From contig JADFLA010000010.1 in assembly GCA_022564635.1 (NCBI GenBank), positions 1 to 32,753 of the forward strand: a stretch of DNA of 32,753 nt. The letters run 5' to 3'. The translations under genes were made by a program, and so were the position numbers. Numbering within the stretch: position 1 is the first letter of the stretch; each line of letters opens with the position of its first letter. This DNA is from Nanobdellota archaeon (GTDB lineage: Archaea > Nanobdellota > Nanobdellia > Woesearchaeales > GW2011-AR4). This document shows, piece after piece, positions 153 through 26,884 of the stretch. The notes beneath the pieces are model-generated. The model was not told where the DNA came from and ran no database searches. It saw only the letters and a program-made list of their open reading frames with translations.

Positions 153-192
153 AATATACGTAACTCTAGGCTTCTGTGGGTGGTTAATCAAT

Positions 193-3865: not shown

Positions 3866-3874
3866 CAAGCAAAA

Positions 3875-3896: not shown

Positions 3897-3906
3897 CTTT
3901 TCAGTT

Positions 3907-4593: not shown

Positions 4594-5692
4594 TTCCATT
4601 CTTCTTAAATGAATACAATGCTTTATTCAATTGTTTCCTTGTATGTGTAGCCATAACAGAAATACGTAATCTTGCACTTTTAACTGTCGGAAATCTAATG
4701 CCAGTAACAAAAATTCCATCTTCTTCAAGTAATTTTTGGAATTTCATTGTTTTTTTATTGTCTCCTATAATAAGGGGTATTATCTGCAAATCTCCAAAAA
4801 CTTTAAAACCCATATTCTTAAGCCTTTTTCTAAAATAAGAAGCATTATTAATCAGTCTAGTCCTCAGTGTCTTATATTCCTGCATAATTTTTAATGCTTC
4901 CAAAGCGCTAGCCGTATCGGCAGGAGACAAGCCAGTTGAATACATGAATGGTCTAGAAGTGTTCCTAAGAAAATCAATAAGTTCATTGCTACCGGCAGCA
5001 TAACCGCCTTGAGAACCAAGAGTTTTTGAAAGTGTTCCCATATGGATATCAATTCCTTCCAAGTTTGTATCTACAATTCCAGTTGCATGCGCATCATCAA
5101 CCATAAATGTAAATGAATATTTTCTCTTTAGATTAATAATTTCTTTTAATGGCGCAACATCGCCATCCATACTAAAGACGCTATCTGTAACAACTAAAAT
5201 ATTTTTATTTTTTAATTTAGATAATTTAGATTCCAAATCTTCAATATCACAATGCTTATACACAACAACATCTGCTTTACTTAACCTGCACCCATCAATT
5301 ATGCTTGCATGGTTAAGCTCATCACTTAAAATTGCATCTCCCTTACCAACAACACTAGAAATAATACCTATATTTGCAGAAAAACCTCCGGAATAAACCA
5401 GAGCAGCTTGACATTTCTTATACCTAGCTATATCTTTCTCCAATTTCTCATGCAAATCCAAATTAACGATCAACCTAGAAGCGACATTTCCTGAACCATA
5501 TTTATCCAAAGCCCTTTTCCCAGCAGCAATAACTCTAGGGTCTGTATTTAATCCAAAATAATTATTTGATGCAAGCATAATACATTCCTTGCCATTAAAC
5601 CTTACAATACTATCGCAAGAACTAGTGATTGTCCTGAACTCTCTAAACAAATTTTTTCCTTTAATATCCTTAAGCTTTTGCTTTATATTCAT
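4559..5692 (-). CDS. bioF: 8-amino-7-oxononanoate synthase (BioF)
   Basis: BioF is a PLP-dependent alpha-oxoamine synthase that condenses a pimeloyl thioester with L-alanine. The 377-aa protein shows the family signatures ASNNYFGL (41-48), SGGFSANIG (101-109), DDAHATG (199-205) and the Schiff-base lysine K223 in GTLSKTLGSQGG. Glycine C-acetyltransferase (Kbl) or another alpha-oxoamine synthase is the main alternative by sequence, but the biotin-gene neighbourhood favours BioF. It is divergent from the bioU-bioD pair, with a shared AT-rich promoter between them. The ATG at 5692 is about 25 nt from the TATA and would be leaderless. Its 3' end overlaps the convergent MBL gene by 35 nt. Confidence 0.9.
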   Translation of the reverse strand: MNIKQKLKDIKGKNLFREFRTITSSCDSIVRFNGKECIMLASNNYFGLNTDPRVIAAGKRALDKYGSGNVASRLIVNLDLHEKLEKDIARYKKCQAALVYSGGFSANIGIISSVVGKGDAILSDELNHASIIDGCRLSKADVVVYKHCDIEDLESKLSKLKNKNILVVTDSVFSMDGDVAPLKEIINLKRKYSFTFMVDDAHATGIVDTNLEGIDIHMGTLSKTLGSQGGYAAGSNELIDFLRNTSRPFMYSTGLSPADTASALEALKIMQEYKTLRTRLINNASYFRKRLKNMGFKVFGDLQIIPLIIGDNKKTMKFQKLLEEDGIFVTGIRFPTVKSARLRISVMATHTRKQLNKALYSFKKNGIKLGLLPHVRK

Positions 5693-5706
5693 ATTGAGAC
5701 CGCTAT

Positions 5707-5746
5707 CTTTTTAAATATTATAAATTTTGCTAGAGTAGTGGGGTGA
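5707..5746. promoter_or_regulatory. bidirectional promoter between bioF and bioU-bioD, with strong SD
   Basis: A TTTTTAAATATTATAAATTTT stretch starting at about 5708 can serve as TATA box in both directions. On the minus strand it predicts a leaderless bioF start at 5692. On the plus strand it predicts a start near 5738, giving a short leader with the Shine-Dalgarno sequence GGGGTGAT (5739-5746) 6 nt before the ATG at 5753. Shared control would keep the biotin genes coordinated. Confidence 0.5.
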
Positions 5747-5752
5747 TAATTA

Positions 5753-6721
5753 ATGAATATAGCTGTACTTGGGGCAGGAGGCTTAGGCAAATCAGCTGCC
5801 AGGATAATTGAACAGAAAAAGGAAGTTAAAATTATAGCAACATGTGACAAAAAAGGCTACCTTATTGATGAAAACGGCATTGATCCAAAAAAAATTTATT
5901 CATTAGGCAAAGGAGAGTCTATTGAAACTATTGGAAACAAATCCGATGATACTATAGGGGAAATCATCAAAGCGCCTAAAATTATAGAGGGAATTTTAAT
6001 AACCTTGCCAAATCTTCCAAATGAATTTATACCATCAGTTGCTAAGAGATTCCTTGACAATAATTATCAAGGATCATTTTCAGACCCATTAAAAAGAACT
6101 CAAGCAATGAAAATAATGTTTGGCATGGATGATTTTTTTAAGAAACATAAATCAACTTACCTTACTGGAACCGGCGCAACACCTGGATTATTGTCAGCAG
6201 CCGCTGTCTTAGCATCTCAATCTTTTATTAAGGTGGATAAAGTTGATATTTTCTGGGGTGTAGGTATAGATAATTGGGAAGAGTATAAAGGAACCATAAG
6301 AGAAGATATTGCACATCTACCAAACTTCTCAATTGAAAAGGCAAAAACCATGACAGATAAAGAAGTAGAAGACCTTCTCGATAAAACAGATGGAAAACTC
6401 AAATTTAAAAATATGGAGCATGCTGATGACATATTATTAAAAAAAGTTGGTGTTGTTGATAACCTTAATCAAGTTACTGTTGGAGGTATTATGGACACAA
6501 GAAACACAAAAAAACCAGTAACTACAACCATGACCTTAACTGGAAAAACCTTTGATAACAAAACAAGCTCTCATAAGTTCATGTTAGGGGATGAGACTAC
6601 AATGGCAGCAAATGTTTTAGGCCCCGCACTAGGCTACTTAAAAAGAGCCATCTGGCTAAACCAAAAAAATATCTATGGTGTGTATGGTTCAACAGAATTC
6701 ATGCCAATGGTGGTAAGGTAA
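5753..6721 (+). CDS. bioU: BioU candidate: saccharopine-dehydrogenase-like NAD(P) oxidoreductase in the biotin cluster
   Basis: This 322-aa protein has an N-terminal Rossmann motif MNIAVLGAGGLGKSA and a C-terminal domain like saccharopine dehydrogenase-type oxidoreductases. It starts after a strong GGGGTGAT Shine-Dalgarno and its stop overlaps the bioD start by one base (TAATG), so the two are translationally coupled. No class-III aminotransferase (BioA) is visible in the window. Cyanobacterial BioU replaces BioA: it is a saccharopine-dehydrogenase-like protein that uses one of its own lysines (Lys124 in Synechocystis) as amino donor to make diaminopelargonate. Here K114 in SDPLKRT is my candidate for that lysine, without an alignment to prove it. 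Context gives the BioU call most of its weight; a generic dehydrogenase is the alternative. Confidence 0.65.
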   Translation: MNIAVLGAGGLGKSAARIIEQKKEVKIIATCDKKGYLIDENGIDPKKIYSLGKGESIETIGNKSDDTIGEIIKAPKIIEGILITLPNLPNEFIPSVAKRFLDNNYQGSFSDPLKRTQAMKIMFGMDDFFKKHKSTYLTGTGATPGLLSAAAVLASQSFIKVDKVDIFWGVGIDNWEEYKGTIREDIAHLPNFSIEKAKTMTDKEVEDLLDKTDGKLKFKNMEHADDILLKKVGVVDNLNQVTVGGIMDTRNTKKPVTTTMTLTGKTFDNKTSSHKFMLGDETTMAANVLGPALGYLKRAIWLNQKNIYGVYGSTEFMPMVVR

Positions 6722-7401
6722 TGGGTAAATGTATTTTTGTAACTGGTACAGACACAGACGTAGGAAAAACAGTAATTGTTGCTTGTCTAGCATCCGCTTT
6801 AATGAGGGCAGGAAAAAAGGTAGCTGTTTACAAGCCAATCCAATGTGGTGATTTACTAAAAGGAAATATTAAATCTCCGGATTTAGCATTAGTTAAAGAA
6901 TTAACCAATATTCCGGATCGAGACTTGGTGAATGATTTTAGTTTTCAACTAGCAGCCTCTCCTCACTTGGCTGCAGAGCATGACAAAGTAAAAGTGGATA
7001 TACAAACTATCAAAGATCATACAAAATCATTGCTAAATGCTTATGACATAGTTCTTATAGAAGGTGCTGGTGGTTTAATTGTGCCATTAACACGAACTTA
7101 CACGGTCCTTAACTTAATAGAGGATCTATCTGTTCCTGTCCTAATTGTTTCGAGGGCCAGCTTAGGAACGATCAACCATACAAGTTTAACAGTCAATGCC
7201 TTAAAATCTCATAATATTCCAATAATAGGAATTATATTAAATTATTTCGAAGGCGGTATAATTGAAGAGGATAATAAAAAGATTATAAATACATTAAATA
7301 ATATACCGGTCATTGGTATTGTACCTTTTTCTAAAAACATAAAAAATCTAGCTAAAGATTTTGAGAAATATGTTGATATAGAAAAAATATTGCAGAGTTA
7401 A
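6721..7401 (+). CDS. bioD: dethiobiotin synthetase
   Basis: BioD closes the ureido ring of dethiobiotin from 7,8-diaminopelargonate, CO2 and ATP. The 226-aa protein has the P-loop GTDTDVGKT at residues 9-17, KPIQCG near 38-43 and EGAGGLIVPL near 114-123, all diagnostic of BioD. It overlaps the upstream BioU candidate by one base, indicating translational coupling and consecutive pathway steps. Its product is the substrate of BioB, encoded about 4 kb upstream. The 50 bp between it and the convergent gene at 7452 is AT-rich with no clear hairpin. Confidence 0.95.
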   Translation: MGKCIFVTGTDTDVGKTVIVACLASALMRAGKKVAVYKPIQCGDLLKGNIKSPDLALVKELTNIPDRDLVNDFSFQLAASPHLAAEHDKVKVDIQTIKDHTKSLLNAYDIVLIEGAGGLIVPLTRTYTVLNLIEDLSVPVLIVSRASLGTINHTSLTVNALKSHNIPIIGIILNYFEGGIIEEDNKKIINTLNNIPVIGIVPFSKNIKNLAKDFEKYVDIEKILQS

Positions 7402-9880: not shown

Positions 9881-10590
9881 ACGACAAATATATCCCCTTC
9901 TACAATTTTTTTAATTCTTCCATTATTTAACCTCAAAATTAAATTACAATTTTCATCAATATCAACGGCTTTTCCAATATAAGAGCCAGATAGTGTTTTT
10001 ACCTTTATGCTCTTTCCCAAAGTATGTGAATATTTCTTCCAAATATTTATTATTTTATTGTAATTTTTTTTATTGTAATAATTATATAAAGAATTAAATT
10101 CCTTCATTATTTTTCTTGAAATGTTTTTAATATTATAATTCTTATTGGTTTCTATTTTTAATGAAGTTGCCTTATTAGCAATATTTTTACTAAATTTTTT
10201 TTGATTAATATTTACTCCAATACCAATTAATGCATATTTTTCATTTCTAGATACTGTTTCTGTAAGAATTCCACATATTTTCTTATCATTTACCATAACA
10301 TCATTGGGCCACTTTACTTTGCTATTTAATTTAGATATTTTTTTTATTGCTTTAGCTACAGATACAGCTGCAATAAAAGTAAGATACTTTATATTTTCTA
10401 AATTCTCTTCTTTAAGAAGTATTGTCATGTACAAACCTCCTGACTCAGAACTCCATTTCCTGCCAAACCTTCCTCTTCCCTTTTCCTGTTTCTCAGCTAT
10501 AACAACAAGGTTATTTTGGCCCTTATCTGCAAAATATTTAGCCTTGTCATTGGTAGAAGAAAGAGTTTTAAAATTATAGAGCTTGAACAT
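9877..10590 (-). CDS. birA: biotin--[acyl-CoA-carboxylase] ligase, no DNA-binding domain
   Basis: BirA activates biotin as biotinyl-AMP and attaches it to the carrier lysine (K95 of the protein at 1813-2202). The 237-aa protein has SSTND (11-15), the adenylate loop GRGRFGRKWSS (38-48), KWPNDVMV (93-100) and a C-terminal SH3-like domain with GKAVDIDENCNL. It has no N-terminal helix-turn-helix, so it is a monofunctional ligase and cannot repress biotin genes as in E. coli. The ATG at 10590 overlaps the stop of the biotin carboxylase gene by one base (TGATG); an in-frame TTG at 10593 is less likely. Carboxylase and ligase are coupled. Confidence 0.94.
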   Translation of the reverse strand: MFKLYNFKTLSSTNDKAKYFADKGQNNLVVIAEKQEKGRGRFGRKWSSESGGLYMTILLKEENLENIKYLTFIAAVSVAKAIKKISKLNSKVKWPNDVMVNDKKICGILTETVSRNEKYALIGIGVNINQKKFSKNIANKATSLKIETNKNYNIKNISRKIMKEFNSLYNYYNKKNYNKIINIWKKYSHTLGKSIKVKTLSGSYIGKAVDIDENCNLILRLNNGRIKKIVEGDIFVV

Positions 10591-12566
10591 CAAACCTCGT
10601 TATTTTCCATTAATTCTTGTCTTCCAGCCATTATCCAGGCATTTGGTTTATTGTTGCTGTAACTATTCTTTTTTTCCATATACTTGGATACAGCTGTTGT
10701 AACAAGAATTACCTTTTGGCCATTTGTTAATTCTTTTCTCTTCCCCCAGCAATACTTCCTCAAACAATTTATAATATCATTTTTTTCAATAAATGATGTT
10801 GTAACATTACCCTTAACAAAATTTTTATCGTACATAACAGCTAAATGAAAGGGTATAGTTGTCTTAATTCCTTCTATAAGATATTCTCTAAGAGCACCTC
10901 TCATCCTGGTTATAGCCTCATCCCTATCTCTTCCATGACATATTAGCAAAGACAACAACGAATCATAATCAGGCAGCACTTTGTAGCCTTGATGACATAT
11001 ACTATTAACCCTTATACCAGGACCTCCTGGAGGAAGATAATTGATTATTGTACCAATAGAAGGATGAAAATTATTCAATGGGTCTTCTGCGTTAATCCTG
11101 CATTCTATTGCCCAGCCATCCAGTTTAATATTGTCCTGATTAAATGTGAGATTTGCCCCTGCTGCTAACTTAATCTGTTCCTTGACTAAATCCACTCCAG
11201 TAACCATTTCTGTGACGCCATGCTCAACTTGGATTCTTGTGTTCATCTCAATAAAATAGAAATTCTCATTCTTGTCCAGCAAAAACTCAACTGTCCCAGC
11301 ACCCAAATATTTAGCAGCTGATACTACCTTTACCGCAGCATCTCCCATATTCTCCCTTAACTCATCATTTATAGCAGGACTAGGACTTTCTTCCACTAGC
11401 TTCTGATGTTTTCTTTGCACACTACAATCTCTTTCTCCTAAATGGACAACATTGCCATATTGGTCAGCTAAAATCTGGAATTCTATATGCCTTGGATCCT
11501 CAATATATTTTTCCATGTATAATATCTTATCTCCAAAAGATAGGTATGCTTCTACTTCAGCACTTTCATAAGACTTTTCAAGTTCTTCTTTGTTCCTTAC
11601 AATCCTCATTCCCCTTCCACCGCCGCCTGAAGCAGCTTTAATCATTATAGGAAAGCCTAATTTAGCTGCAAGTTTTATAGCATGTTTTTTGTTCTTCAAA
11701 GTTTTTATAGTTCCTCTTATAACAGGAACTTTAGCCTTAAGCACAGCCTTCTTTGCCCTTACCTTATCTCCCAAAAGCTCTATTGTCTTTGATGATGGAC
11801 CTATAAACTTGATCTTGTTTTTCTCGCATAGTTTTGCAAACTTCGCATTTTCCGCTAGAAACCCATAACCAGGGTGTATTGCATCAGCCTTTGTCTTTTT
11901 TGCAATATTTATTATTTTACCTGTATCAAGATAGCTAATACCTGCTCCTAGGTAATATGCCTTATCAGCAAATTTCACAGCTAAAGTGTCTTTATCCTGT
12001 TTAGAATAAACCAAAACCGTTTCTATTTCTAATTCTCTGCAAGCTCTTATTACCCTTAAAGCAATCTCTCCTCTATTAGCTATTAGGACTCTCTTGAACT
12101 TCTTTTCCTTTGATAATAAGGTATATTCTTTCTCGCTAAAGCTTGCCATGCTTAAACCCTTAGCAAGCATATCAATAAAGGTTTGAGAAGATCTACTGCC
12201 TACTATCTTCTTTAGTTCTCTTTCATCCATAGTAGGAATCTTTTTAATTAAGGATGAGGTTATTGTATCTCCAAGCTCAGCCAAATCTGTTTTTTTGAAT
12301 ATCTTTTTTCTTTTATCAATCGGAACAATATTGCTTTTAATTAATGCTTCTATTTCATCATAAACCAATGGTGCGGTTTTTTTCATATTTTTGAATGCCT
12401 TCTTAAAAGCCTTATAAGAATATTCCATAGGAACTAGACTTTTATTTAGAGAAGACACTATTTTATTCTTGATAATTGACGAAAGATAATCTTTTCTATC
12501 TGCCACAATCAAATGTATCTGTTTTCTGTATATAAATATTTGGGATTTTTGTTGATTATTTTCCAT
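10590..12566 (-). CDS. biotin carboxylase subunit with unusual N-terminal extension
   Basis: This 658-aa protein carboxylates biotin on the carrier protein using ATP and bicarbonate. The core starts at about residue 158 (KRVLIANRGEIALRVIRACRE) and has HPGYGFLAEN, the ATP-grasp glycine loop KAASGGGGRGMRIV, EKYIEDPRHIEFQ, GERDCSVQRKHQK and FIEMNTRIQVEHGVTE. Preceding it is about 155 residues of Lys-rich, helix-predicted sequence absent from ordinary AccC. The C-terminus ends in a tail of about 60 residues with NAWIMAGRQELM, like tails of some archaeal acyl-CoA carboxylases. I chose the ATG at 12566: a minus-strand TATA (ACATTTATAC, 12581-12590) suggests a leaderless start, and the longer reading begins with TTG at 12614. 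It is coupled to birA and divergent from the dehydratase gene. Confidence 0.92.
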   Translation of the reverse strand: MENNQQKSQIFIYRKQIHLIVADRKDYLSSIIKNKIVSSLNKSLVPMEYSYKAFKKAFKNMKKTAPLVYDEIEALIKSNIVPIDKRKKIFKKTDLAELGDTITSSLIKKIPTMDERELKKIVGSRSSQTFIDMLAKGLSMASFSEKEYTLLSKEKKFKRVLIANRGEIALRVIRACRELEIETVLVYSKQDKDTLAVKFADKAYYLGAGISYLDTGKIINIAKKTKADAIHPGYGFLAENAKFAKLCEKNKIKFIGPSSKTIELLGDKVRAKKAVLKAKVPVIRGTIKTLKNKKHAIKLAAKLGFPIMIKAASGGGGRGMRIVRNKEELEKSYESAEVEAYLSFGDKILYMEKYIEDPRHIEFQILADQYGNVVHLGERDCSVQRKHQKLVEESPSPAINDELRENMGDAAVKVVSAAKYLGAGTVEFLLDKNENFYFIEMNTRIQVEHGVTEMVTGVDLVKEQIKLAAGANLTFNQDNIKLDGWAIECRINAEDPLNNFHPSIGTIINYLPPGGPGIRVNSICHQGYKVLPDYDSLLSLLICHGRDRDEAITRMRGALREYLIEGIKTTIPFHLAVMYDKNFVKGNVTTSFIEKNDIINCLRKYCWGKRKELTNGQKVILVTTAVSKYMEKKNSYSNNKPNAWIMAGRQELMENNEV

Positions 12567-12580
12567 ATAGTAAATAATGA

Positions 12581-12630
12581 GTATAAATGTAAAAACGGAT
12601 GATTTTCCTTTCAACGAAAGTTATTTAAAC
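12581..12630. promoter_or_regulatory. divergent promoters for biotin carboxylase and the FabZ-thiolase operon
   Basis: On the plus strand TTATTTAAAC (12621-12630) is centred about 26 nt before the ATG at 12651, predicting a leaderless dehydratase transcript. On the minus strand ACATTTATAC (12581-12590) is similarly placed before the biotin carboxylase ATG at 12566; the TTTAAATAA at 12621-12629 could also act in that direction. The 84-bp space links carboxylase and chain-elongation expression. Confidence 0.5.
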
Positions 12631-12650: not shown

Positions 12651-13148
12651 ATGAATTCGATAGACAAATTTAAGGATAAAGGGGGGGGAATAAGCAAAGA
12701 GGCCATTAAAAAAATAATACCATACGACAATCCTTTCTTGATGATTGATCGTATTTTAGAGCTTAATAAAAAAAGTATAGTGGCCATAAAAAACGTAAAA
12801 AAAGATGAATACTATCTTAAGGGTCATTTCAAAGATTTCCCAATAATGCCAGGTGCTTTAATTATAGAAGGCCTTGGCCAGGCCGCAACAATGCTTGTAA
12901 GGTACAACATAAAAAACCATGAGCAGAAAGACATTTTAGCCTATAAGATAAGAAGCGCTAAATTTTTTAGGCCAACATTTCCTGGACAAACTTTAACATT
13001 TAAAGCTAAGTTAGTTTTTATATTCAAAAAAATTGCTTTTGTAAATGGGAATGTGTTTAGAAAAGATAAGTTGGTTTCAAAGGTTAAGATGGTTTTGGCA
13101 ATAGTTGATAAAGAACAGTTTAGAGGAAGGTATAGCAAGAAAAAATAA
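12651..13148 (+). CDS. fabZ: FabZ-like 3-hydroxyacyl dehydratase
   Basis: This 165-aa hot-dog protein matches the (3R)-hydroxyacyl-ACP dehydratase family. It has IIPYDNPFLMIDRILEL (22-38), the catalytic His in KGHFKDFPIMPG (H59) and the catalytic Glu in EGLGQAA (E73). It removes water from 3-hydroxyacyl thioesters to give trans-2-enoyl products; whether the carrier is ACP or CoA cannot be told, and no ACP is seen. It is the first gene of a compact + strand operon, 29 nt before a thiolase, and its ATG appears leaderless. An N-terminal GGG glycine run (11-13) comes from a run of eight Gs (12681-12688) that could be prone to indels, but the frame is intact. Confidence 0.9.
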   Translation: MNSIDKFKDKGGGISKEAIKKIIPYDNPFLMIDRILELNKKSIVAIKNVKKDEYYLKGHFKDFPIMPGALIIEGLGQAATMLVRYNIKNHEQKDILAYKIRSAKFFRPTFPGQTLTFKAKLVFIFKKIAFVNGNVFRKDKLVSKVKMVLAIVDKEQFRGRYSKKK

Positions 13149-13177: not shown

Positions 13178-14305
13178 ATGTATGTAAAAGGCGTAGGCAT
13201 GACAAAGTTTGGTAATCTGGATAAAAGCAGCCAGGAGCTTTGTTACGAAGCTGCATCAGAAGCTCTGGAAGATGCCCAAATGTCTTTAGAGGACATAGAT
13301 GCAATCGTAATTGCCCGCGGGGATTCTGTTTTAGACGGAGAAAGGCAAAGACTGTTCATGTCAGTAATCAGCAGCATACTTCAAAAAGAAGACATCCCTA
13401 TAACCCAGGTAATGGCTGCCTGCAGCGGAGGAGGTGCTGCATTTTGGGACGCTGTCAACTCTAATAACAATAACATTCTGGTTTTAGGTGTGGAAAAATT
13501 AGCGCATATTCCAACCAAAATCGTAACAGAAGATTTGATGATGGCAGCAGAAAGAATCTATGAGCAAAGCGAGGGTTTAAATTTTCCTGCCCAGAATGCC
13601 TTAATAGCCCAGCAATACATTAACAGGTATAATGTAAAGGAAAAGGATCTTGACTTAGTTGCATTGAAAAATCATGATAATGCTTACTTCAATCCAAAAG
13701 CAAGATTTTATGGCAAGAAAATAACTTTAGACATGATAAGAAAATCTCCAGTTGTTGCTTCTCCCTTGAGGTTGTTTGACTGCAGCATCTCTGTGGATGG
13801 TGCTGCCGCAGCTATAGTGACTAAACAAAAAACAGACATCGAAGTCGTGGGGTCAGCTTTGTACACTGACAGGCTGTCAGCTTTTGAATCTGAAGATATG
13901 ACCTCTTGGCAATCAGTAGTTTTAGCGGCTGAATCTGCATATAAGCAGGCTAACTTGACTCCCAAAGATATCAGTTTTTCAGAAATCCATGATGCTTTCA
14001 CTCCTATTGAAATTATGTCTTACGAGGATCTTGGATTTGCAAAAAAAGGGGAAGGAAAAAATTTGATCAGGAAGGGTATAACAAAATTAAACGGTAGCTT
14101 GCCCATAAACACTTCTGGAGGCCTAAAGGCAAAAGGCCATCCGATAAGCGCTACTGGCGTATCCCAGATATATGAAATCGTAAAGCAGATGAGGAAAGAA
14201 GCAGGAAAACGCCAGATTGATAACACTAAAATTGCATTGTCGCATAATGTTGGCGGTGCCGGCAGTACAGCCACTGTCCATATTTTCAGGAATATTGGAG
14301 GATAA
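13178..14305 (+). CDS. archaeal-type thiolase (acetyl-CoA acetyltransferase-like), copy 1
   Basis: This 375-aa thiolase-fold protein is of the archaeal/SCP-x type that works with DUF35 partners. The nucleophilic cysteine is C82 in AACSGGGAAFW; HDAFTPIE and GGLKAKGHPISATG supply the His residues, and the C-terminal motif HNVGGAGSTATVHI has no second Cys, as usual in this type. It would condense acyl-CoA with acetyl-CoA or cleave 3-ketoacyl-CoA. It follows fabZ by 29 nt with an AGGTG Shine-Dalgarno and precedes the OB-DUF362 gene by one base. The second half is nearly identical to the thiolase at 15778-16914, in places at DNA level. It is the best candidate condensing enzyme here. The region looks richer in G+C than its neighbours. 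Confidence 0.9.
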   Translation: MYVKGVGMTKFGNLDKSSQELCYEAASEALEDAQMSLEDIDAIVIARGDSVLDGERQRLFMSVISSILQKEDIPITQVMAACSGGGAAFWDAVNSNNNNILVLGVEKLAHIPTKIVTEDLMMAAERIYEQSEGLNFPAQNALIAQQYINRYNVKEKDLDLVALKNHDNAYFNPKARFYGKKITLDMIRKSPVVASPLRLFDCSISVDGAAAAIVTKQKTDIEVVGSALYTDRLSAFESEDMTSWQSVVLAAESAYKQANLTPKDISFSEIHDAFTPIEIMSYEDLGFAKKGEGKNLIRKGITKLNGSLPINTSGGLKAKGHPISATGVSQIYEIVKQMRKEAGKRQIDNTKIALSHNVGGAGSTATVHIFRNIGG

Positions 14306-14306
14306 A

Positions 14307-15776
14307 ATGATCATAAGATGGGTCTCAGAAGACGGTAAAAGAAAATGGCTGTATCCGATAGAAAAAGACATCTATAGCCATGGAAAAATAATAAAACAAG
14401 TCAGCCATAAAGCCAAGATCATCGGCATAACTAAAGTAAACATTCCTTCGCCTTTGCATCCCATCATCCCGTATTATGTAATGCTATTAGAAGATGAGTA
14501 TGGGAATAGGCTACCGAAAAAGACCATGAAAAGCAGGAAAATTGGCGATGTTTATGAGATAAAACCTGCTACTAGCAATGGTGCGGTAATAATAACCAAA
14601 ATAAAATATGATATTAACGCATATTTAAAGGAATCTCTCAATCTTTTAAATTCCTATGATCTGAATGACGATGACAAAATTCTCATCAAGCCTTCTATTA
14701 TCGAGCCTGCACACCCTTACCAATCTGTCAATACCAACCCAAAAATTCTGGATGCAATTATTTGCCATCTTAAGGAGAAAGGCGTAAAGGATATAATTGT
14801 TGCCGAGCAATCAATGCTTGGTAATGATACCATAGCGTCTTCAAAAAAAGCAGGCATCCTTGATGTATGCAAAAAACACGACGTTCAATTTGTTGATTTG
14901 AGCAAAAGTAATTTCATTGAAAAAATTCATGATGATTTCAAGTTTAATATTGCTAAGGAAGTCCTGGAAAGAAAGATTATAAATGTCCCAGTTATGAAAA
15001 CTCATACGCAGATTGGTATTTCCGGGGCCATGGAGAACATGATCAGGGTTGTTGATGAAAAAACCCAAAAAGAGATGTATACACATGATATTGAAAAAAC
15101 TCTTCCTAAGCTGATAAAAACATTGCCTGGTTTTTTAAGCATAGGTGATACCACTATAGGTATGCATGGCAACGGCCCCACATACTTAGGCGAGCCCGCA
15201 TTCTTAAACATGATTTTCGTAAGTAAAGATCCTGTGGCTTTAGACACGGTATTCACAGAAATTGGTATTTTTGAGATGCCTAATTACATCAAAATTGCTG
15301 GAATTATCGGGGCAGGAAATAACATAACAAAAGACATCGAGATTGTTGGGGACGAACTGGAAGCTTCGAAGTTTCACCTAAAGATTCCTGAAAAAAACAT
15401 AAGCGCTCATCCAAACATAGAACTTATTGATGGTAAGGCAAACCCTTACATTTTTAATTCTGCCTTGAAATCAACTGCAAAGTTAGTCGGTTTGTTGGGA
15501 AGCAAAATGCAGCTGGTCATCGGTTCTCATTTTACTGAAGATATGGTAAAGGGCAAGAACAGGTTAGTTGCATATGGAAATGACGCTATTAAAAAAATAA
15601 AGGATCTTGGGTTGAACGTAGTTGCGGAAATCCCGGATGACATTGATGATATTGAAAAATTGATGCTGATAAAAAGCATCTTGGAAAATCCTGATAAGAC
15701 AAAATTGGATGCAAAAGACAAACTATTCTCAAAAATTGGAAAAATAGGTACCAAATTAAAACAATCTTTAAACTAA
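14307..15776 (+). CDS. OB-fold (DUF35-like)/DUF362 fusion protein
   Basis: This 489-aa protein has two parts. Residues about 30-90 (IIGITKVNIPSP, YYVMLLEDEYGNRL, IGDVYEI) look like the OB-fold half of DUF35, which lies beside thiolases in archaea and bridges thiolase and HMG-CoA synthase active sites; the usual zinc-ribbon cysteines are missing. From about 105 it is DUF362-like: DKILIKPSII, KVLDAI-type helix, GVKDIIVAEQS, VPVMKTHTQIGISGAMENMI and DPVALDTV. DUF362 has no settled function and is sometimes found with iron-sulfur ferredoxin domains, not seen here. It sits one base after thiolase 1 and one base before thiolase 2. The ATG at 14307 is chosen because the earlier in-frame ATG at 14217 lies inside thiolase 1. 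An acyl-transfer scaffold role is inferred. Confidence 0.8.
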   Translation: MIIRWVSEDGKRKWLYPIEKDIYSHGKIIKQVSHKAKIIGITKVNIPSPLHPIIPYYVMLLEDEYGNRLPKKTMKSRKIGDVYEIKPATSNGAVIITKIKYDINAYLKESLNLLNSYDLNDDDKILIKPSIIEPAHPYQSVNTNPKILDAIICHLKEKGVKDIIVAEQSMLGNDTIASSKKAGILDVCKKHDVQFVDLSKSNFIEKIHDDFKFNIAKEVLERKIINVPVMKTHTQIGISGAMENMIRVVDEKTQKEMYTHDIEKTLPKLIKTLPGFLSIGDTTIGMHGNGPTYLGEPAFLNMIFVSKDPVALDTVFTEIGIFEMPNYIKIAGIIGAGNNITKDIEIVGDELEASKFHLKIPEKNISAHPNIELIDGKANPYIFNSALKSTAKLVGLLGSKMQLVIGSHFTEDMVKGKNRLVAYGNDAIKKIKDLGLNVVAEIPDDIDDIEKLMLIKSILENPDKTKLDAKDKLFSKIGKIGTKLKQSLN

Positions 15777-15777
15777 A

Positions 15778-16914
15778 ATGGTTTTTGTTAAGAGTGCGGG
15801 AATGACGAAGTTTGATATTGATCAAAGAAGTTCTTATGATAGGATTTATGAGTGTGTTAACGAATCTCTGGATTCAGGAAATATAAATTTTGACCGGATT
15901 GATGCTATTTTTGTTTCCAATGGTGAACCGGAATCTAATGGTGAAAGGCAAAAGCATGTTGGACCGATGATGAGCAGCATGTTTCAGAAAAAAATCCCGA
16001 TTATCACTGTTCCGGCAGGCTGCGGAGGAGGGGGTGCAGCCTTATGGAATGCAATAAACTATCAGGGAAAAAACAGCGTAAATAATATTTTGGTCATTGG
16101 TTTTGAGAAACTTGTCGCAAATCAGTCTGAAAAAACCACAGATGAGATGCTTATGGGTGGGGAAAGAATCTATGAACAGGCAGAAGGTGTAATATTCCCG
16201 GCGCAAAATGCCTTAGTTGCTCAGCAATATATGATGAAGTATAATGTCACAACAGATGACCTGGCCTTGGTTGCATTGAAAAATCATGATAATGCTTACC
16301 TCAATCCAAAAGCTAGGTTTTATGGCAAGAAAATAACTTTAGACATGATTAATAAGTCCCCTATCGTATCTTCTCCCCTAAGGTTGTTTGACTGTAGCAT
16401 CCCATGCAACGGAGCTGCTTCATTGATCATTAGCAAAGATAAAACAGATATAGAGATTATTGGCAGCGGGTTAAGTACCAGCAACTTGTCTAGCTTTGAA
16501 AGGAAGGATATGATTTCCTGGAACAGCACCAAAAAGGCAGCTGAAATAGCATATAAACAAGCCAAGGTAAGTCCTAAAGACATACATATTGCGGAAATCC
16601 ATGATGCATTTACACCTGTAGAACTCATTTCCTATGAAGACCTAGGATTTGTCGAGAAAGGCAAAGGCGCTGATTTGATAAGGGACGGAATTGTAAATTT
16701 AAACGGCAGCTTGCCCGTAAACACTTCTGGAGGCCTAAAGGCAAAAGGCCATCCAATAAGCGCTACTGGCATTTCCCAGATATATGAAATCGTAAAGCAG
16801 ATGAGGAAAGAAGCAGGAAAACGCCAAGTTGACAGCATAAAATACGCTCTTACACAAAATATCGGTGGAGCAGGCAGCATAGCCAGTGTCCATATACTAA
16901 AAAAGGTTATGTGA
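15778..16914 (+). CDS. archaeal-type thiolase, copy 2
   Basis: This 378-aa paralogue of the thiolase at 13178-14305 has all the same landmarks: nucleophile C82 in AGCGGGGAALW, HDAFTPVE, GGLKAKGHPISATG and NIGGAGSIASVHI. The N-terminal about 140 residues, which line the acyl pocket, differ clearly from copy 1 while much of the rest is almost identical, suggesting different chain-length preference or a heteromeric complex. It begins one base after the OB-DUF362 stop and ends the operon. The double-hairpin element at 16978-17028 follows and may terminate transcription. Confidence 0.9.
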   Translation: MVFVKSAGMTKFDIDQRSSYDRIYECVNESLDSGNINFDRIDAIFVSNGEPESNGERQKHVGPMMSSMFQKKIPIITVPAGCGGGGAALWNAINYQGKNSVNNILVIGFEKLVANQSEKTTDEMLMGGERIYEQAEGVIFPAQNALVAQQYMMKYNVTTDDLALVALKNHDNAYLNPKARFYGKKITLDMINKSPIVSSPLRLFDCSIPCNGAASLIISKDKTDIEIIGSGLSTSNLSSFERKDMISWNSTKKAAEIAYKQAKVSPKDIHIAEIHDAFTPVELISYEDLGFVEKGKGADLIRDGIVNLNGSLPVNTSGGLKAKGHPISATGISQIYEIVKQMRKEAGKRQVDSIKYALTQNIGGAGSIASVHILKKVM

Positions 16915-19665: not shown

Positions 19666-20400
19666 ATGCTAAAAAATAAAATTGCTTTAATTACTGGAGC
19701 TTCTAGAGGTATTGGGGAAGCTATTGCTATTGAATTTGCTAAAAATAATGCTGATGTTATAATTAATTACTACAATGATCAAGAAGAAGCCCAAAAGGTT
19801 GTTGACAAAGTAAAGAAATATGGCGTTGAAAGTATGGCTGTTAAAGCTGATGTATCCAATTTCAATGAAGTAAAGCAAATGGTAGAGGAGATACAAAAAA
19901 AATTCAAAAGAGTGGATATTCTTGTCAACAATGCTGGAATTGTAAAAGATAGGACCTTAAAAAACATAACTCTGGAGGAATGGCACGCAGTCATAAATAC
20001 AAATCTGAATGGAGTTTTCTATGTGACCAAAGTAGTTTTGCCATTGATAGGTGAAGGAGGAAGAATCATAAATATATCTTCTATTGTTGGCCAATATGGA
20101 AACTTTGGACAATGTAATTATGCAGCTGCTAAAGCAGGTATTATAGGATTTACAAAATCACTAGCAAAAGAGCTTGGCAAAAAGAAGATAACAGTAAATG
20201 CCATTGCTCCTGGATTTGTAAAAACCGGCATTACCAAAAACATACCGTTTCTCAGGAAAAAGATAATAAATTATATGACCCCATTGAAAGAGGGAGCTGA
20301 ACCGAAGGATATTGCTAATCTTGTTACATTCTTGGCATCAGAAAAATCTAGATACATAACTGGTTCTGTAATCAATATTGATGGAGGTTTGGCTTTTTAA
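19666..20400 (+). CDS. fabG: 3-oxoacyl-ACP/CoA reductase (FabG)
   Basis: This 244-aa short-chain dehydrogenase reduces 3-oxoacyl thioesters to (R)-3-hydroxyacyl products. It has the cofactor loop TGASRGIG (10-17), NNAG (88-91), the catalytic S139-Y152-K156 triad (NISS; YAAAK) and the C-terminal SRYITGSVINIDGGLAF, all typical of FabG. The product is the substrate expected for the FabZ-like dehydratase at 12651. Its DNA has few distinctive features apart from the short 11-nt gap after the methyltransferase gene, consistent with an operon. PhaB-type or other SDR reductases are closely related, but the setting favours fatty-acid synthesis. Confidence 0.88.
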   Translation: MLKNKIALITGASRGIGEAIAIEFAKNNADVIINYYNDQEEAQKVVDKVKKYGVESMAVKADVSNFNEVKQMVEEIQKKFKRVDILVNNAGIVKDRTLKNITLEEWHAVINTNLNGVFYVTKVVLPLIGEGGRIINISSIVGQYGNFGQCNYAAAKAGIIGFTKSLAKELGKKKITVNAIAPGFVKTGITKNIPFLRKKIINYMTPLKEGAEPKDIANLVTFLASEKSRYITGSVINIDGGLAF

Positions 20401-21740: not shown

Positions 21741-22745
21741 ATGGACAATAATTTCGCAGAACTTTCGCGGTTGGTAAGAGAAAAGGGTTTACTCGAAAGG
21801 CAATATAGATACTATGCATTTAAAATAATCAGTACATTGGTATTGCTCTCATTAGGTATTTTTTTATTATTGACCATCCACCATTTCGGGCTTAAGTTAC
21901 TAATCGCAGTTTATCTGGCTTTTGTGTATGTACAGGTTAGTTTTGTTGGTCATGATGTTGCCCACCACCAGGTGTTCAAGTTATCCAAATATAATGATTT
22001 CTTGGGGCTCTTCTTTGGTTCCTTTCTACTTGGAGTAAGTCGGGGTTACTGGACGGACAAGCACAATACTCATCATAGACAACCCAACCGGATTGATGCT
22101 GATCCGGATATTGAATACCCGATTTTTGCTTTTAGTGAGGAACAAGCATTAAGCAAAAGGGGTGTACAGAGGTTTATGGTGAAATATCAAGCATTTTTCT
22201 TCTTGCCCCTTTGGTTATTTGAAGGAATTGTCATAAGGGGTGCTTCTATCCTTTATCTCATCACTCATAAGGTTAAATACCGCCTGATTGATGCTCTGCT
22301 CATAGCTACTCATTTGATTGGGTATACTGTACTGATTTTTAGTTTACTCCCAACAGGACAGGCCTTTCTCTTTATATTGATTCATCAGGCTCTCTTTGGT
22401 TTTTATTTATCTTCCGTGTTTGCTCCCAATCACAAAGGTATGCCTTTAAACGAAAAAGATACCAAGATAGACTTCATTCATGAACAGGTTCTTACGGCCA
22501 GAAATGTCAAAGCTCATCCACTTACTGATTATTGGTATGGGGGGCTAAACTATCAGATCGAACATCATTTATTTCCTACAACAGCGCGCAATAAATTGGG
22601 GGAATTACAAAAAATCGTACGCTCATATTGCCAGGAGCACGATATTCATTACTATGAAACAGGAATGGTACAATCTTATAAAGAAATTATTGTATTTCTT
22701 CATGGTGTAAGCGCCGTTGTTCGTAAGTCTCATTCTGCACCCTAA
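21741..22745 (+). CDS. membrane fatty-acid desaturase (acyl-CoA/acyl-lipid type)
   Basis: This 334-aa integral membrane protein has the three histidine boxes of diiron desaturases: HDVAHH (71-76), HNTHH (108-112) and QIEHH (272-276). The Gln in the third box and the LNYQIEHHLFPT context are typical of front-end (linoleoyl-CoA-type) desaturases. Hydrophobic segments at about 29-46, 50-68, 150-172 and 184-220 fit the usual four-helix topology. It introduces a double bond into a fatty acyl chain using O2 and reduced ferredoxin or cytochrome b5; no fused cytochrome b5 domain is present. Its richer G+C content and bacterial look suggest horizontal transfer. Its presence makes sense only if fatty acyl chains are made or taken up. 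Confidence 0.92.
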   Translation: MDNNFAELSRLVREKGLLERQYRYYAFKIISTLVLLSLGIFLLLTIHHFGLKLLIAVYLAFVYVQVSFVGHDVAHHQVFKLSKYNDFLGLFFGSFLLGVSRGYWTDKHNTHHRQPNRIDADPDIEYPIFAFSEEQALSKRGVQRFMVKYQAFFFLPLWLFEGIVIRGASILYLITHKVKYRLIDALLIATHLIGYTVLIFSLLPTGQAFLFILIHQALFGFYLSSVFAPNHKGMPLNEKDTKIDFIHEQVLTARNVKAHPLTDYWYGGLNYQIEHHLFPTTARNKLGELQKIVRSYCQEHDIHYYETGMVQSYKEIIVFLHGVSAVVRKSHSAP

Positions 22746-22868: not shown

Positions 22869-23468
22869 ATGGTAGAAGAGAAATTTTTGGTACCTACAAA
22901 CGAATATCTAAAGTCTGGAATACATATAGGCACAAAGTTTAAGACTAGATACATGGAAAAGTTTATCTATAAAACAAGGCCCGATGGTTTGTCTGTATTA
23001 AATTTACAAAAGATAGATGAAAGAATAAACGTAGCAGCTAAATTTTTAGCGCAATACGATCCGGAAGACATCCTTATTGTAGGGAGAAGGGAAAGCGCAT
23101 GGAAGCCAATAAAAATGTTTGGTAAAGTTACTGGAGTAAAGGTTTTTGCAGGAAGATATCCTCCAGGAATCTTGACAAATCCTAATTTGGATATTTATAT
23201 TGAGATAAAAGTTCTCTTGGCTGTTGATTCGGGTCCAGACAGAAATGCAGTAATAGACGCATTAAAGATGGGAATCCCCATTGTAGCTATATGTGACACT
23301 AACAACCAATCGAACAATATAGACCTAGTAATTCCAAGCAACAACAAAGGTAAAAAAAGCTTAGGATTATTTTTCTGGATACTTGCAAGGGAATATTTAA
23401 GGAATCGGGGAATTCTGAAGAAAGATGAGGAGCTTAAAGAGAAGGTAGAAGATTTTACAGAAGAATAA
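22869..23468 (+). CDS. rps2: ribosomal protein uS2 (archaeal S2/SA)
   Basis: This 199-aa small-subunit protein matches archaeal/eukaryotic uS2: YLKSGIHIGTKFKTRYMEKFIYKTRPDGLSVLNLQKIDERI at the N-terminus, GRRESAWKPIKMFGKVTGVKVFAGRYPPGILTNP in the middle and IPIVAICDTNNQSNNIDLVIPSNNKGKKSLGLFFWILAREYLR in the C-terminal half. It lacks the bacterial coiled-coil insert, supporting archaeal origin. In many archaea the gene is clustered with RNA-polymerase subunits and enolase; here it stands alone between the desaturase and gpsA. It has its own promoter and a structured leader. Confidence 0.96.
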   Translation: MVEEKFLVPTNEYLKSGIHIGTKFKTRYMEKFIYKTRPDGLSVLNLQKIDERINVAAKFLAQYDPEDILIVGRRESAWKPIKMFGKVTGVKVFAGRYPPGILTNPNLDIYIEIKVLLAVDSGPDRNAVIDALKMGIPIVAICDTNNQSNNIDLVIPSNNKGKKSLGLFFWILAREYLRNRGILKKDEELKEKVEDFTEE

Positions 23469-23479
23469 AATTTATCATT

Positions 23480-24460
23480 TTACTCTATTTTAATCAAATC
23501 TGATATAGCTTTCTTCAAATCCTTATTTCTATAAAGAACCTCATAAGCCTGCTCTGTCAGGGGCATGTAAAGATTATTTTTTTTGCTGAATTCGTAAACA
23601 GCCTTTGTTGTTTGTATCCCTTCTGCTATCATACCCTTCATCTCTTTTATAATTTCGTCAACATCCTTTCCTTCTGAAATTTTTTCTCCAACAAACCTGT
23701 TTCTGCTATGTTTGCTAGTACAAGTTGCAACTAAGTCGCCAACACCAGCAAGGCCATAAAAGGTTGCTCTTTTAGATCCTAAAAATTTTCCATAAGTGCT
23801 CATCTCCATTAGACCCAGAGTTATAATGCTTGCCCTTGCATTGTCTCCATAACCCAAACCATCACACACCCCAGTTGCCACTGCTGCTATATTCTTTAAA
23901 GCGCCACAAACCTCTACCCCCACTATATCATCATGTGTAAAAACTCTAAAATAATCGGTATGGAATATTTTTTTTATATCTTTAAGGCAATTAATGTTCT
24001 CTGACGCTATAACAGTTGCAGTTGGCATTTTTCTGCTTACTTCTTCAGCATGATTGGGGCCTGAAAGAGATACTATTGAAATTTTATTAGGAAGTTCTTC
24101 CCTTAAAACCTCTGACATTCTTTTGTATGTATCTATCTCAATACCTTTCGCAGTATTAACAATAATATCACAATTAATATACTTTGAATATTTTTTAGCC
24201 ATCTCCCTAGTAAATTGTGCTGGAATTGCATTAACCACCAAATCTGCATTTTCCACTGCCTTTTCTATAGAACACTCAACTTTAACTTTATCCGGTATTT
24301 TAATGCCAGGAAGATATTGTTTATTCTCCCTATGTTTGACTATTGATTCCGCATTTGACTTTTCCTTTACCCATAAAGTAACATCATATCCATTTTCAGC
24401 TACTAATACAGATAAAGTTGTCCCCCAGCTTCCTGCCCCAATAATAGATATTTTTTCCAT
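23480..24460 (-). CDS. gpsA: NAD(P)-dependent sn-glycerol-3-phosphate dehydrogenase
   Basis: GpsA reduces dihydroxyacetone phosphate to sn-glycerol-3-phosphate, the backbone of bacterial glycerolipids. The 326-aa length is typical. Motifs: GAGSWGTTLS (8-17), NAIPAQF, SGPNHAEEVSRKMPTA, the catalytic-lysine segment ALKNIAAVATGVCDGLGYGDNARASII and LAGVGDLVATCTSKHSRNR. Most archaea instead make the opposite enantiomer with G1P dehydrogenase. It starts 2 bp after the plsC stop and is the last gene of a three-gene operon with two acyltransferases, which strongly suggests that its product is acylated to phosphatidic acid. Confidence 0.95.
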   Translation of the reverse strand: MEKISIIGAGSWGTTLSVLVAENGYDVTLWVKEKSNAESIVKHRENKQYLPGIKIPDKVKVECSIEKAVENADLVVNAIPAQFTREMAKKYSKYINCDIIVNTAKGIEIDTYKRMSEVLREELPNKISIVSLSGPNHAEEVSRKMPTATVIASENINCLKDIKKIFHTDYFRVFTHDDIVGVEVCGALKNIAAVATGVCDGLGYGDNARASIITLGLMEMSTYGKFLGSKRATFYGLAGVGDLVATCTSKHSRNRFVGEKISEGKDVDEIIKEMKGMIAEGIQTTKAVYEFSKKNNLYMPLTEQAYEVLYRNKDLKKAISDLIKIE

Positions 24461-24462
24461 TC

Positions 24463-25092
24463 TCAGAAATTATATTCTTGCTTACATAATCTTGCAATTT
24501 CTTTCATTATATCGTTTGTCACTTTTCTTAATAATTTCTTTGTTATTTTTTTATGGTAATATTTATTAAAATACATTGGTTTGCCTATATTCATTACAGC
24601 TCTTTTTAATTTTGGGATATATTTTCCTTTTGGCAAAATTTCAAAAGCCCCTATTAGTCCTATTGGTAGAACTGGAACTTTGGCTGCTAGAGTCAATCTA
24701 GCAACACCTGTTTTTGCCTTTTGTAATTTTCCTGTTAAGCTTCTTGTACCTTCTGGGTGGAGAGCTATAATTTTTCCTTGCTTTAATACCTTCACAGCCC
24801 AATTTAATGCTTCTTTCCCACCAGTTTGTCTATCAATAGGTATTGCGCCTGCATAAGTATGCCACATTTTTTTAAAAATATTGTCAAAATGTTCTTTTTT
24901 TGCAAGATGATGTATTTTTTTATTTAAATAAGGAACTAAAGTACACATTATTATAAGGTGGTCCATATAACTCGTATGATTTGCAGTCACTATAAAAGCT
25001 CCTTTTTTAGGAACATTTTCCAACCCATTTATTTTTTTAATCCAAAGATTAAATACTGATGGAAATATTATTTTTCCTATTGGGTATACCAT
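24463..25092 (-). CDS. plsC: PlsC-like 1-acyl-sn-glycerol-3-phosphate acyltransferase, copy 1
   Basis: This 209-aa acyltransferase carries the PlsC motifs: NHTSYMD (H39, D44) as catalytic pair, GAIPIDR (82-88) and PEGTRS (113-118) for glycerophosphate binding, then the VPVLPIGLIG block. It should acylate (lyso)phosphatidic acid at the membrane. It is the closer of the two paralogues to canonical PlsC. It is 16 bp after the second copy and 2 bp before gpsA. No PlsB, PlsX or PlsY is visible, so one of the two copies may perform the first acylation of glycerol-3-phosphate. Confidence 0.92.
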   Translation of the reverse strand: MVYPIGKIIFPSVFNLWIKKINGLENVPKKGAFIVTANHTSYMDHLIIMCTLVPYLNKKIHHLAKKEHFDNIFKKMWHTYAGAIPIDRQTGGKEALNWAVKVLKQGKIIALHPEGTRSLTGKLQKAKTGVARLTLAAKVPVLPIGLIGAFEILPKGKYIPKLKRAVMNIGKPMYFNKYYHKKITKKLLRKVTNDIMKEIARLCKQEYNF

Positions 25093-25108
25093 TTTTAAAA
25101 AAATATTT

Positions 25109-25756
25109 TTAATAATTATATCTCTGGTATATTAATTTTGCAATATTTTTCATTATAATTCTCGTTATATTTTCGAGAACTCTTTCATTTATTTTTTTAT
25201 TATAATATTTATTAAAATAAATTGGTTTCCCTATTTTTACTTCGCATCTTTTAAATCCTGGAAAAAATTTTCCTTTGGGAAGAACTTTATTAGACCCTAT
25301 AATGCCTATAGGCAGAACAGGAATTTTGGAATTTAAAGCTAATCTTGCAACGCCAGTATATGCCTTTCTTAATTTTCCATCGGAGCTTCTTTTGCCTTCT
25401 GGGAATATCATAATTATTTCGTTTTTTTTTAGGTAATTAAAAGCTTTTTCAAATGATTTTTTATTGTTTTTTTTTGATTTATCTCCTTTTTCAACATAAA
25501 CCGGTATGGATTCATGATAGTTAAGGAATATTCTTGTTAAAAATTTATTCCAGTAATAACTATTAACTAACGCGTGTATTTTTTTATCTATTTTTGGTAT
25601 TATTAAAGAAGGCAAAAGGAGTGCATCATAGTAGCTTGCATGATTCATCGCCATAATAAATGGTTTGTGTTTTGGCACATTTTCTAGTCCCTCGACTTTA
25701 CGTAGCCATAACTTATAAATAGGCGGTATAATCCACTTCTCAATGGGATAAACCAT
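25109..25756 (-). CDS. PlsC-like glycerolipid acyltransferase, copy 2
   Basis: This 215-aa paralogue of the protein at 24463-25092 aligns from end to end: the same MVYPI start, GLENVPK, NHASYYD (H39, D44), VPVLPIG-type block and a nearly identical GKPxYFNKYYxKKI region near the C-terminus. It differs at the substrate motifs: PEGKRS instead of PEGTRS, and SIPVYVEKGDKSKKN in place of AIPIDRQTGG, so the arginine of the third motif is absent. A different acceptor or acyl donor is likely. It is first in the operon; TTTTTAATGAG lies about 30 nt before its ATG. Tandem duplication and divergence is the likely origin. Confidence 0.9.
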   Translation of the reverse strand: MVYPIEKWIIPPIYKLWLRKVEGLENVPKHKPFIMAMNHASYYDALLLPSLIIPKIDKKIHALVNSYYWNKFLTRIFLNYHESIPVYVEKGDKSKKNNKKSFEKAFNYLKKNEIIMIFPEGKRSSDGKLRKAYTGVARLALNSKIPVLPIGIIGSNKVLPKGKFFPGFKRCEVKIGKPIYFNKYYNKKINERVLENITRIIMKNIAKLIYQRYNY

Positions 25757-25837: not shown

Positions 25838-26884
25838 TTAAATATCTTTCAATCCGCTGGTTTCAAGATAGAAACTTGCTTCTCCTTCTGGTAAGCTAGG
25901 GCTATCAATAAGTTTAGCGACTCTGCTGCCTTTTTTTCCTTTTCTGAGGTATATCCTAAAAGTAGAGGCATGCCCGACAATATGCCCTCCAATAGGTACC
26001 GTAGGGTCACCAAAAAACGTATCCGGCTTTGACATCACCTGATTCGTGACATACACGCACAAATTATACATCTGTGCTAGTTTTGAAAGATCCCTCATAT
26101 GCCTGTTTAGCTTTTGCTGCCTTTCTGCTAATGTTCCTCTGCCAATATACTCTGCTCTAAAGTGTGCTGTTAAAGAATCTATTATAACAAGCTTTACATC
26201 TAACCCTTGCTTTTTTATCAAATCCTCTATCTTTTCTCCTAACAACATCTGGTGGTCTGTATTAAATGCCTTTGCCACTTTAATGTTCTTAAGAACCTCT
26301 GTCGGATCTAATCCAACATTTTTAGCAATCTGTTCAATCCTCTCCGGCCTAAAAGTGTTCTCTGTATCAATGTAAACCGCAGTAGAACCCGGATATTGTT
26401 TTTGGCAATTTACTGCAAGTATATGCCCAATTTGAGTTTTTCCCGATCCAAATTCTCCAAAGCATTCTGTCAATGCTCCAGACTCAAAGCCGCCGCCAAC
26501 TAAGGTATCAAAAGCTTTACTGCCAGTAGATATCCTCATGACCTGTTCCCTTTTTTTAAGAACATCAATTCCACTCTCAAAGCCCATATCCAAAGAAGCT
26601 CTAGCTGTTGCTATAATCTTTTTAGCAGCTGCTTGCGCCATTCCGGTAGCATCTATAATCTCTCCAGGAGTTGCTACTGCAACTGACATAAGATCATTAT
26701 ATCCTACTGCCTCAAGTTTCTCGATAGTTGCAGGACCTACACCCGGAAGGTCAGATAAAGTTTTTTCTTTAACTGTTTGTTTTTCTTGATTATCTGGTTT
26801 AGAAATATTTGGTTTATCATTTCTAATTAATGTTTTTTTCTGATTATTTTGAACAACTTTTGGTTCCATTAATATTTGTTTCAT
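25838..26884 (-). CDS. radA: DNA recombinase RadA
   Basis: RadA is the archaeal Rad51/RecA homologue that forms filaments on ssDNA for homologous recombination. The 348-aa protein has a helix-hairpin-helix domain at about 44-95 ([19 protein letters not shown]), the FESG-type linker motif, Walker A GEFGSGKT (143-150), Walker [16 protein letters not shown], and the loop segments [28 protein letters not shown]. The first about 40 residues form a Lys/Asn-rich extension. A GGTGAT Shine-Dalgarno 4 nt before the ATG fixes the start. It follows the small gene at 26942-27226 and lies near RPA, its usual partner on ssDNA. Confidence 0.97.

Follow-up and report, generated by a model that had tools for sequence, protein, structure and literature searches.

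A conserved gpsA-plsC-plsC operon as the candidate front end of bacterial-type phospholipid synthesis in a Woesearchaeota-type archaeon

Few differences between Archaea and Bacteria are regarded as firmer than the lipid divide. We examined a locus in which genes typical of one side of this divide stand among genes of the other, and asked whether the archaeon that carries it makes its own ester phospholipids. The window (the whole stretch of 32,753 nucleotides analyzed here) is contig 21 of a Woesearchaeota-type MAG of 1.43 Mb, which is distributed over 74 contigs and is 87% complete. A preliminary description, made from the letters of the window, had reported gpsA and two plsC genes as a tight operon between the archaeal genes for uS2 and RadA. 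This description proved accurate, as the open reading frames lie exactly there and their domain matches are far above chance.

The operon and its conservation

The three genes lie on the minus strand and are separated by intergenic gaps of 2 and 16 bases. gpsA (23480-24460) encodes a bacterial-type NAD(P)H-dependent glycerol-3-phosphate dehydrogenase of 326 amino acids (aa), while plsC_A (24463-25092; 209 aa) and plsC_B (25109-25756; 215 aa) each encode a PlsC/AGPAT-type acyltransferase. On one side, 11 bases separate gpsA from the convergent gene for the archaeal ribosomal protein uS2 (22869-23468, plus strand; PF00318), which adjoins gpsA in most syntenic loci. On the other side, 81 bases separate plsC_B from radA (25838-26884, minus strand; Rad51/RadA, PF08423), an archaeal recombinase gene that is a conserved upstream neighbor. 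A domain search of the window also placed archaeal RPA and TRAM proteins close to the operon.

Bacterial-type genes flanked by archaeal ones, in a MAG of 74 contigs, could come from an assembly or binning chimera of bacterial and archaeal DNA, an objection that the preliminary description had itself foreseen. We therefore turn to the gene order in other genomes. Within the window's family, gpsA was present in 28 of 36 genomes. A tandem plsC pair adjoined it in 25 of the 28 and a single plsC in 1, and in the remaining 2 the gene or the pair lay at a contig end. The operon block recurred in the fetched loci of family f1 and of five other families of the order (f14, f30, f32, f50 and f71). In these syntenic loci uS2 was usually convergent, and radA, RPA, ligT, TRAM and a thiolase-DUF362-thiolase-fabG series were often found alongside. 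The same-genus relatives that share the order include the public Woesearchaeota/Nanoarchaeota MAGs ETNP7_MAG_25 and B44T1L10, and the order was found on contigs of up to 436 kb. GC content was fairly even along the window. Because many independent MAGs share this gene order, misassembly is excluded, and conserved synteny likewise rules out misbinning; the probability that we leave to a chimera is negligible.

GpsA contained both GPDH domains over cut-off (NAD_Gly3P_dh_N, 171.7 bits; NAD_Gly3P_dh_C, 189.4 bits), scored 399.5 bits against NCBIfam NF000942 (cut-off, 257) and conserved the SGPxxAxE and GALKN regions. Its closest solved relative was that of Thermotoga maritima (1z82; E value, 1e-72). 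The activity predicted from these features is the reduction of DHAP to sn-glycerol-3-phosphate (G3P). Both PlsC proteins matched PF01553 (92.9 bits for plsC_A and 82.5 bits for plsC_B) and had intact NHX4D and (F/H)PEGxRS motifs, in the form of NHTSYMD and HPEGTRS in PlsC_A and of NHASYYD and FPEGKRS in PlsC_B; the structure match for PlsC_A was PlsC 5kym. Against TIGR00530 (AGP_acyltrn), the two proteins scored 88.9 and 61.6 bits and did not reach the cut-off of 102.95 bits. Judged by motifs and profiles, membership of the PlsC superfamily is clear, a verdict that the TIGR00530 score does not extend to 1-acyl-G3P specificity.

Trees of GpsA and PlsC, which the preliminary description had proposed as a check, were built with bacterial sequences drawn from a plasmid collection. 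The operon-linked GpsAs formed a single order-wide clade (support, 100/98) whose inner branching largely tracked families, and the GpsA of a genome without the plsC operon (G047) fell outside it. PlsC_A (95/91) and PlsC_B (92/96) formed two parallel, separate clades, each spanning several families. GpsA was 45% identical to that of Acetoanaerobium, and the actinomycete GpsAs fetched were less close in sequence. Comparison with same-genus copies gave dN/dS values of about 0.1 for gpsA and plsC_A, with dS near saturation, worst for plsC_B; these values are in line with purifying selection. The operon is under selection and is conserved across genera and families.

The genome holds four PF01553 proteins: PlsC_A, PlsC_B, a third copy and a fusion protein. 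The fusion (789 aa; L033:2089-4458) was considered as a PlsB that could act as the first acyltransferase, but it is an AMP-binding-ACP-acyltransferase protein, and the profile search found no PlsB among the four. The fusion gene adjoins a phosphopantetheinyl transferase gene; in Ilyobacter, too, AMP-binding proteins carry a PlsC-like region at the C terminus. The third PlsC (L035:9898-10524) has NYESYVD in place of NHX4D, with the catalytic His changed to Tyr, and is probably inactive or altered; this substitution makes it an unlikely candidate for the missing G3P acyltransferase. The copies of this protein in relatives form another clade and have the His intact. PlsY (PF02660) was absent from the whole family and was matched in 4 of the 118 genomes of the order. 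Since neither PlsY nor PlsB was found, a PlsC would have to catalyze the first acylation.

Ether-lipid enzymes, CDP activation and head groups

The preliminary description had named a full archaeal ether-lipid pathway as grounds for abandoning its reading, and had suggested a search of the parent genome for G1P dehydrogenase (G1PDH), GGGP synthase (GGGPS), CdsA and PlsY. No such pathway emerged. G1PDH (NF002022) scored over cut-off in none of the 118 genomes of the order, and archaeal controls do pass this cut-off. Two PF13685 matches in the genome were considered as G1PDH; NCBIfam assigned them to other iron alcohol dehydrogenases, one of them cytidylyltransferase-fused. GGGPS (PF01884) had no match in the genome and no credible match in the 118 genomes, of which 66 are at least 90% complete. 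Short marginal TIM-barrel stretches were seen in 16 of the 118, and the three just above cut-off were outside the family. The UbiA family, a candidate for DGGGP synthase, had no match in the genome; it was over cut-off in 15 of 59 relatives and absent from most genomes of the family's largest genus. Among the remaining enzymes of the search, PlsY was not found and CdsA did not exceed its cut-off.

The absence of G1PDH and of a credible GGGPS from so many genomes, together with the missing UbiA, makes it improbable that an ether-lipid pathway persists hidden, with the bacterial genes used for G3P metabolism or minor lipids and a membrane that is ether-based or mixed. What keeps this reading in view is that the genome is 87% complete, that ether lipids could be served by the CarS, PssA, Psd and PgsA enzymes described below, and that some relatives have UbiA-family proteins; UbiA near MEP genes has been reported (PMC8204110). 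Far more doubtful is a second variant, in which the PlsCs would use G1P-type or mixed substrates and yield fatty-acyl lipids with archaeal or mixed backbone stereochemistry. Bacterial PlsC and PlsY accept both stereoforms in vitro, and bacterial PlsC can also take a G1P-based lysolipid (PMC13400652). However, the same operon holds the G3P-making gpsA, and no G1PDH was found.

Bacterial-type CdsA was not found over cut-off in the genome (22.6 against 385 for PRK11624 CdsA). Two CTP_transf_1 matches were considered for this role. The better of the two is CarS, the CDP-archaeol synthase (contig 66; NF003114, 152.6 bits, cut-off 148; PF01864, 130 bits), with conserved motifs matching the solved CDP-archaeol synthase 5guf, and the weaker (L037:7739-8332) matched no NCBIfam family. 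The archaeal-type CarS is the only CDP-lipid synthase found in the genome. Characterized CarS is restricted to unsaturated geranylgeranyl archaetidic acid and does not use phosphatidic acid, although it is indifferent to ether versus ester bonds and to stereochemistry (PMC4244643). Activity of this CarS on phosphatidic acid would therefore require a new specificity.

Enzymes for the head groups were over cut-off: PssA (TIGR00473, 113.7 bits; cut-off, 107), Psd (NF003685, 199.8 bits; cut-off, 183) and two PgsA proteins (TIGR00560, 178.6 and 132.2 bits; cut-off, 109.1). Contig 67 encodes Psd, a phospholipid/ornithine-lipid methyltransferase-like protein, PssA, two PgsA-type proteins, a divergent PAP2 protein and the third PlsC, and also bears ribosomal proteins L18e, S9 and L13. 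Relatives share a second conserved cluster in the order psd-pmt-pssA-pgsA-PHP-plsC-carS. In 20 carS loci of relatives, chosen by a cytidylyltransferase or CDP-alcohol transferase match, the neighbors of carS were pgsA in 18, psd in 14, pssA in 14 and plsC in 9. This linkage of an archaeal CarS to bacterial-type acyltransferases, in genomes that lack GGGPS, is the strongest sign that its substrate may be a diacyl lipid.

Two iron alcohol dehydrogenase genes were observed in this context. One (L035:7569-8783) lies between two pgsA-type genes, and a similar neighborhood occurs on contig 5 of genome G017. The other (L036:2991-4574) encodes a protein of 527 aa in which a cytidylyltransferase domain is fused to the dehydrogenase, and a likely nucleotidyltransferase gene is adjacent.

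Proposed pathway and its relation to known systems

On balance, we consider it rather probable that this Woesearchaeota-type DPANN family makes its own ester phospholipids by a bacterial-type route and that the operon encodes the first committed steps. The pathway would be chimeric, with bacterial-type GpsA and PlsC feeding an archaeal CarS. GpsA would convert DHAP to G3P, and the two diverged PlsC paralogues would attach the sn-1 and sn-2 acyl chains to give phosphatidic acid, one acting as the G3P acyltransferase that replaces PlsY/PlsB and the other as the LPA acyltransferase. An archaeal-type CarS with a changed substrate would charge phosphatidic acid with CTP, and from the resulting CDP-diacylglycerol PssA, Psd and PgsA would form PS, PE and PG; methylation of PE by the Pmt-like enzyme may follow. 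We infer four of the steps from gene content, namely the division of labor between PlsC_A and PlsC_B, the action of CarS on phosphatidic acid, the CoA carrier and the use of the products in the bulk membrane, and likewise the product, acyl chains and stereochemistry of the pathway. The functional ester-lipid pathway of the preliminary description is thus upheld in part: both objections that it had raised against itself failed and Pss, Psd and PgsA are in the genome, but PlsY and CdsA were not found, and the candidate for CDP activation is the archaeal CarS.

A broader proposal, to which we give an even chance, is that this family and several sister families have lost G1P isoprenoid ether lipids and have a membrane of G3P fatty-acyl ester phospholipids, with the PlsC pair in place of PlsY/PlsB and a re-targeted CarS in place of CdsA. 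If bacterial-type phospholipids are the only ones that the family makes, the membrane chemistry of an archaeal cell would have been exchanged completely. The lipid divide would then have been crossed in nature, starting from its archaeal side, and the case would bear on whether such a membrane switch could have occurred at the origin of eukaryotes. The genome also provides two enzymes whose predicted activities can be tested, namely a CarS that should accept phosphatidic acid and a PlsC paralogue that should acylate G3P.

The proposed pathway resembles bacterial phosphatidic acid synthesis (GpsA, PlsX/PlsY or PlsB, PlsC, CdsA) in its GpsA, in its intact PlsC motifs and in the downstream Pss, Psd and PgsA. 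It differs in that the archaeon has no PlsY, PlsB or CdsA over cut-off, with two PlsCs and CarS instead. A pairing of plsC with gpsA is also known from Actinomycetota, where a Micromonospora plasmid has a lysophospholipid acyltransferase gene directly upstream of gpsA; theirs is one plsC, whereas the archaeon has a tandem pair. In the plasmid collection, the bacterial PlsCs that matched most closely were from Streptomyces and Nonomuraea, with 37 to 39% identity. With the archaeal ether-lipid pathway (G1PDH, GGGPS, DGGGPS, CarS and archaetidylserine synthase), the shared elements are CarS and the CDP-alcohol phosphatidyltransferases, whereas neither G1PDH nor GGGPS was found, nor, in this genome, UbiA.

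Bacterial fatty-acid genes, a bacterial G3P dehydrogenase and MEP genes in Woesearchaeota are described by Castelle 2021 (PMC8204110) and Zhang 2024 (PMC10936187), and GpsA in Woesearchaeota, as well as PlsC/PlsY in environmental archaea including DPANN, by Coleman 2019 (PMC6431249). The published lipid genes of Woesearchaeota (PMC8204110, PMC10936187 and PMC11868695), with bacterial fatty-acid, G3P dehydrogenase and MEP genes among them, are thus close counterparts of the genes described here. GpsA and fatty-acid genes of bacterial type were on record for Woesearchaeota before this analysis. A search of the open-access literature turned up no account of the double-plsC operon, of the CarS linkage or of the joint absence of G1PDH, GGGPS, PlsY and CdsA. 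What appears to be new is the conserved double-PlsC operon, the CarS pathway without PlsY or CdsA and the lack of an ether-lipid front end.

Acyl chains and the fatty-acid genes of the window

The preliminary description had also pointed to malonyl-CoA-forming and chain-elongation genes nearby. The window encodes the carboxyltransferase subunit of an acyl-CoA carboxylase (106-1686, plus strand; domain and NCBIfam matches), a biotin carboxyl carrier protein (1813-2202, plus strand; domain match) and an AccC-like biotin carboxylase subunit with a 170-aa N-terminal extension (10590-12614, minus strand; domain and NCBIfam matches). A gene for a FabZ-like 3-hydroxyacyl dehydratase (12651-13148, plus strand; PF07977; NF000582, 107.2 bits, cut-off 113) is followed by thl1 (13178-14305, plus strand), a thiolase of the archaeal/SCP2 type (solved relatives, 7yvy and 6esq) and the candidate chain-elongating condensing enzyme; the FabZ-like gene also adjoins thl1 in loci L031 and L039. 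A second thiolase gene, thl2 (15778-16914, plus strand; NCBIfam match), is conserved in relatives, and both thiolases of the window match archaeal/SCP2 thiolases best. The gene for a FabG-like 3-oxoacyl reductase (19666-20400, plus strand; TIGR01830, 288.8, cut-off 297.75; NF009466, 262.2, cut-off 222) is conserved in the syntenic loci. Between the thiolase genes lies a DUF362 gene (14217-15776, plus strand) whose true start is probably inside the open reading frame, and the thiolase-DUF362-thiolase cassette (13178-16914) is itself conserved in relatives.

Beta-ketoacyl-ACP synthase I/II (PF00109) had no match in the genome and was over cut-off in 3 of 59 relatives. A free-standing ACP was absent from the genome, the sole PP-binding match being inside the AMP-binding/acyltransferase fusion. 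Because ketoacyl synthase and free ACP are both missing, elongation is probably thiolase driven and CoA based rather than of the bacterial FAS II type. The carboxylase subunits, FabZ-like protein and FabG of the preliminary description were confirmed as present, but not as parts of a bacterial FAS II. ACP-independent fatty acid synthesis in archaea has reportedly been proposed by Lombard and colleagues. The likeness lies in thiolases with reductase and dehydratase genes and no ACP or ketoacyl synthase found; the archaeon differs in its FabG/FabZ-type partners and the acyl-CoA carboxylase nearby, and an enoyl reductase was not identified. In the proposed pathway, acyl groups would be supplied as CoA thioesters from the thiolase-FabG-FabZ-like cycle; alternatively, fatty acids may be activated by the AMP-ligase-ACP-acyltransferase fusion.

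The latter source also fits a salvage scheme, in which a host or bacteria supply bulk lipids or fatty acids, lysolipids are rebuilt or re-acylated by GpsA and the PlsCs, and the head-group enzymes exchange head groups. Many DPANN depend on hosts (PMC11868695), and DPANN cells may draw much of their lipid from them. The fusion could activate scavenged fatty acids, and the elongation cycle as found is incomplete, with no ketoacyl synthase, free ACP or identified enoyl reductase. On the other hand, pure remodeling has no need of a G3P synthase inside the plsC operon; the neighborhood conserves genes for FabG, a FabZ-like protein and thiolases, to which the window adds the acyl-CoA carboxylase and biotin synthesis genes; and several families retain the operon. 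We consider salvage unlikely, though it is the most serious competitor of self-made phospholipids.

A fatty acid desaturase gene (21741-22745, plus strand; domain match) encodes the His boxes HDVAHH, HNTHH and QIEHH. Desaturases with three His boxes normally require oxygen. The gene was not seen in any of the other syntenic loci compared. The dense set of FabG, FabZ, carboxylase and desaturase noted earlier is thus present, with the desaturase as an isolated addition outside the conserved arrangement.

The window also holds a biotin protein ligase gene and, at 2216-7401, a biotin cluster encoding BioB (410.5 bits; cut-off, 225), BioD (159.7 bits; cut-off, 83.3) and a BioF/Kbl-type acyltransferase. 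BioU is a single-turnover enzyme that was first described in cyanobacteria. The same cluster encodes a BioU-like protein of full length, which scored 379.8 bits (cut-off, 600); BioU would be notable in a DPANN archaeon.
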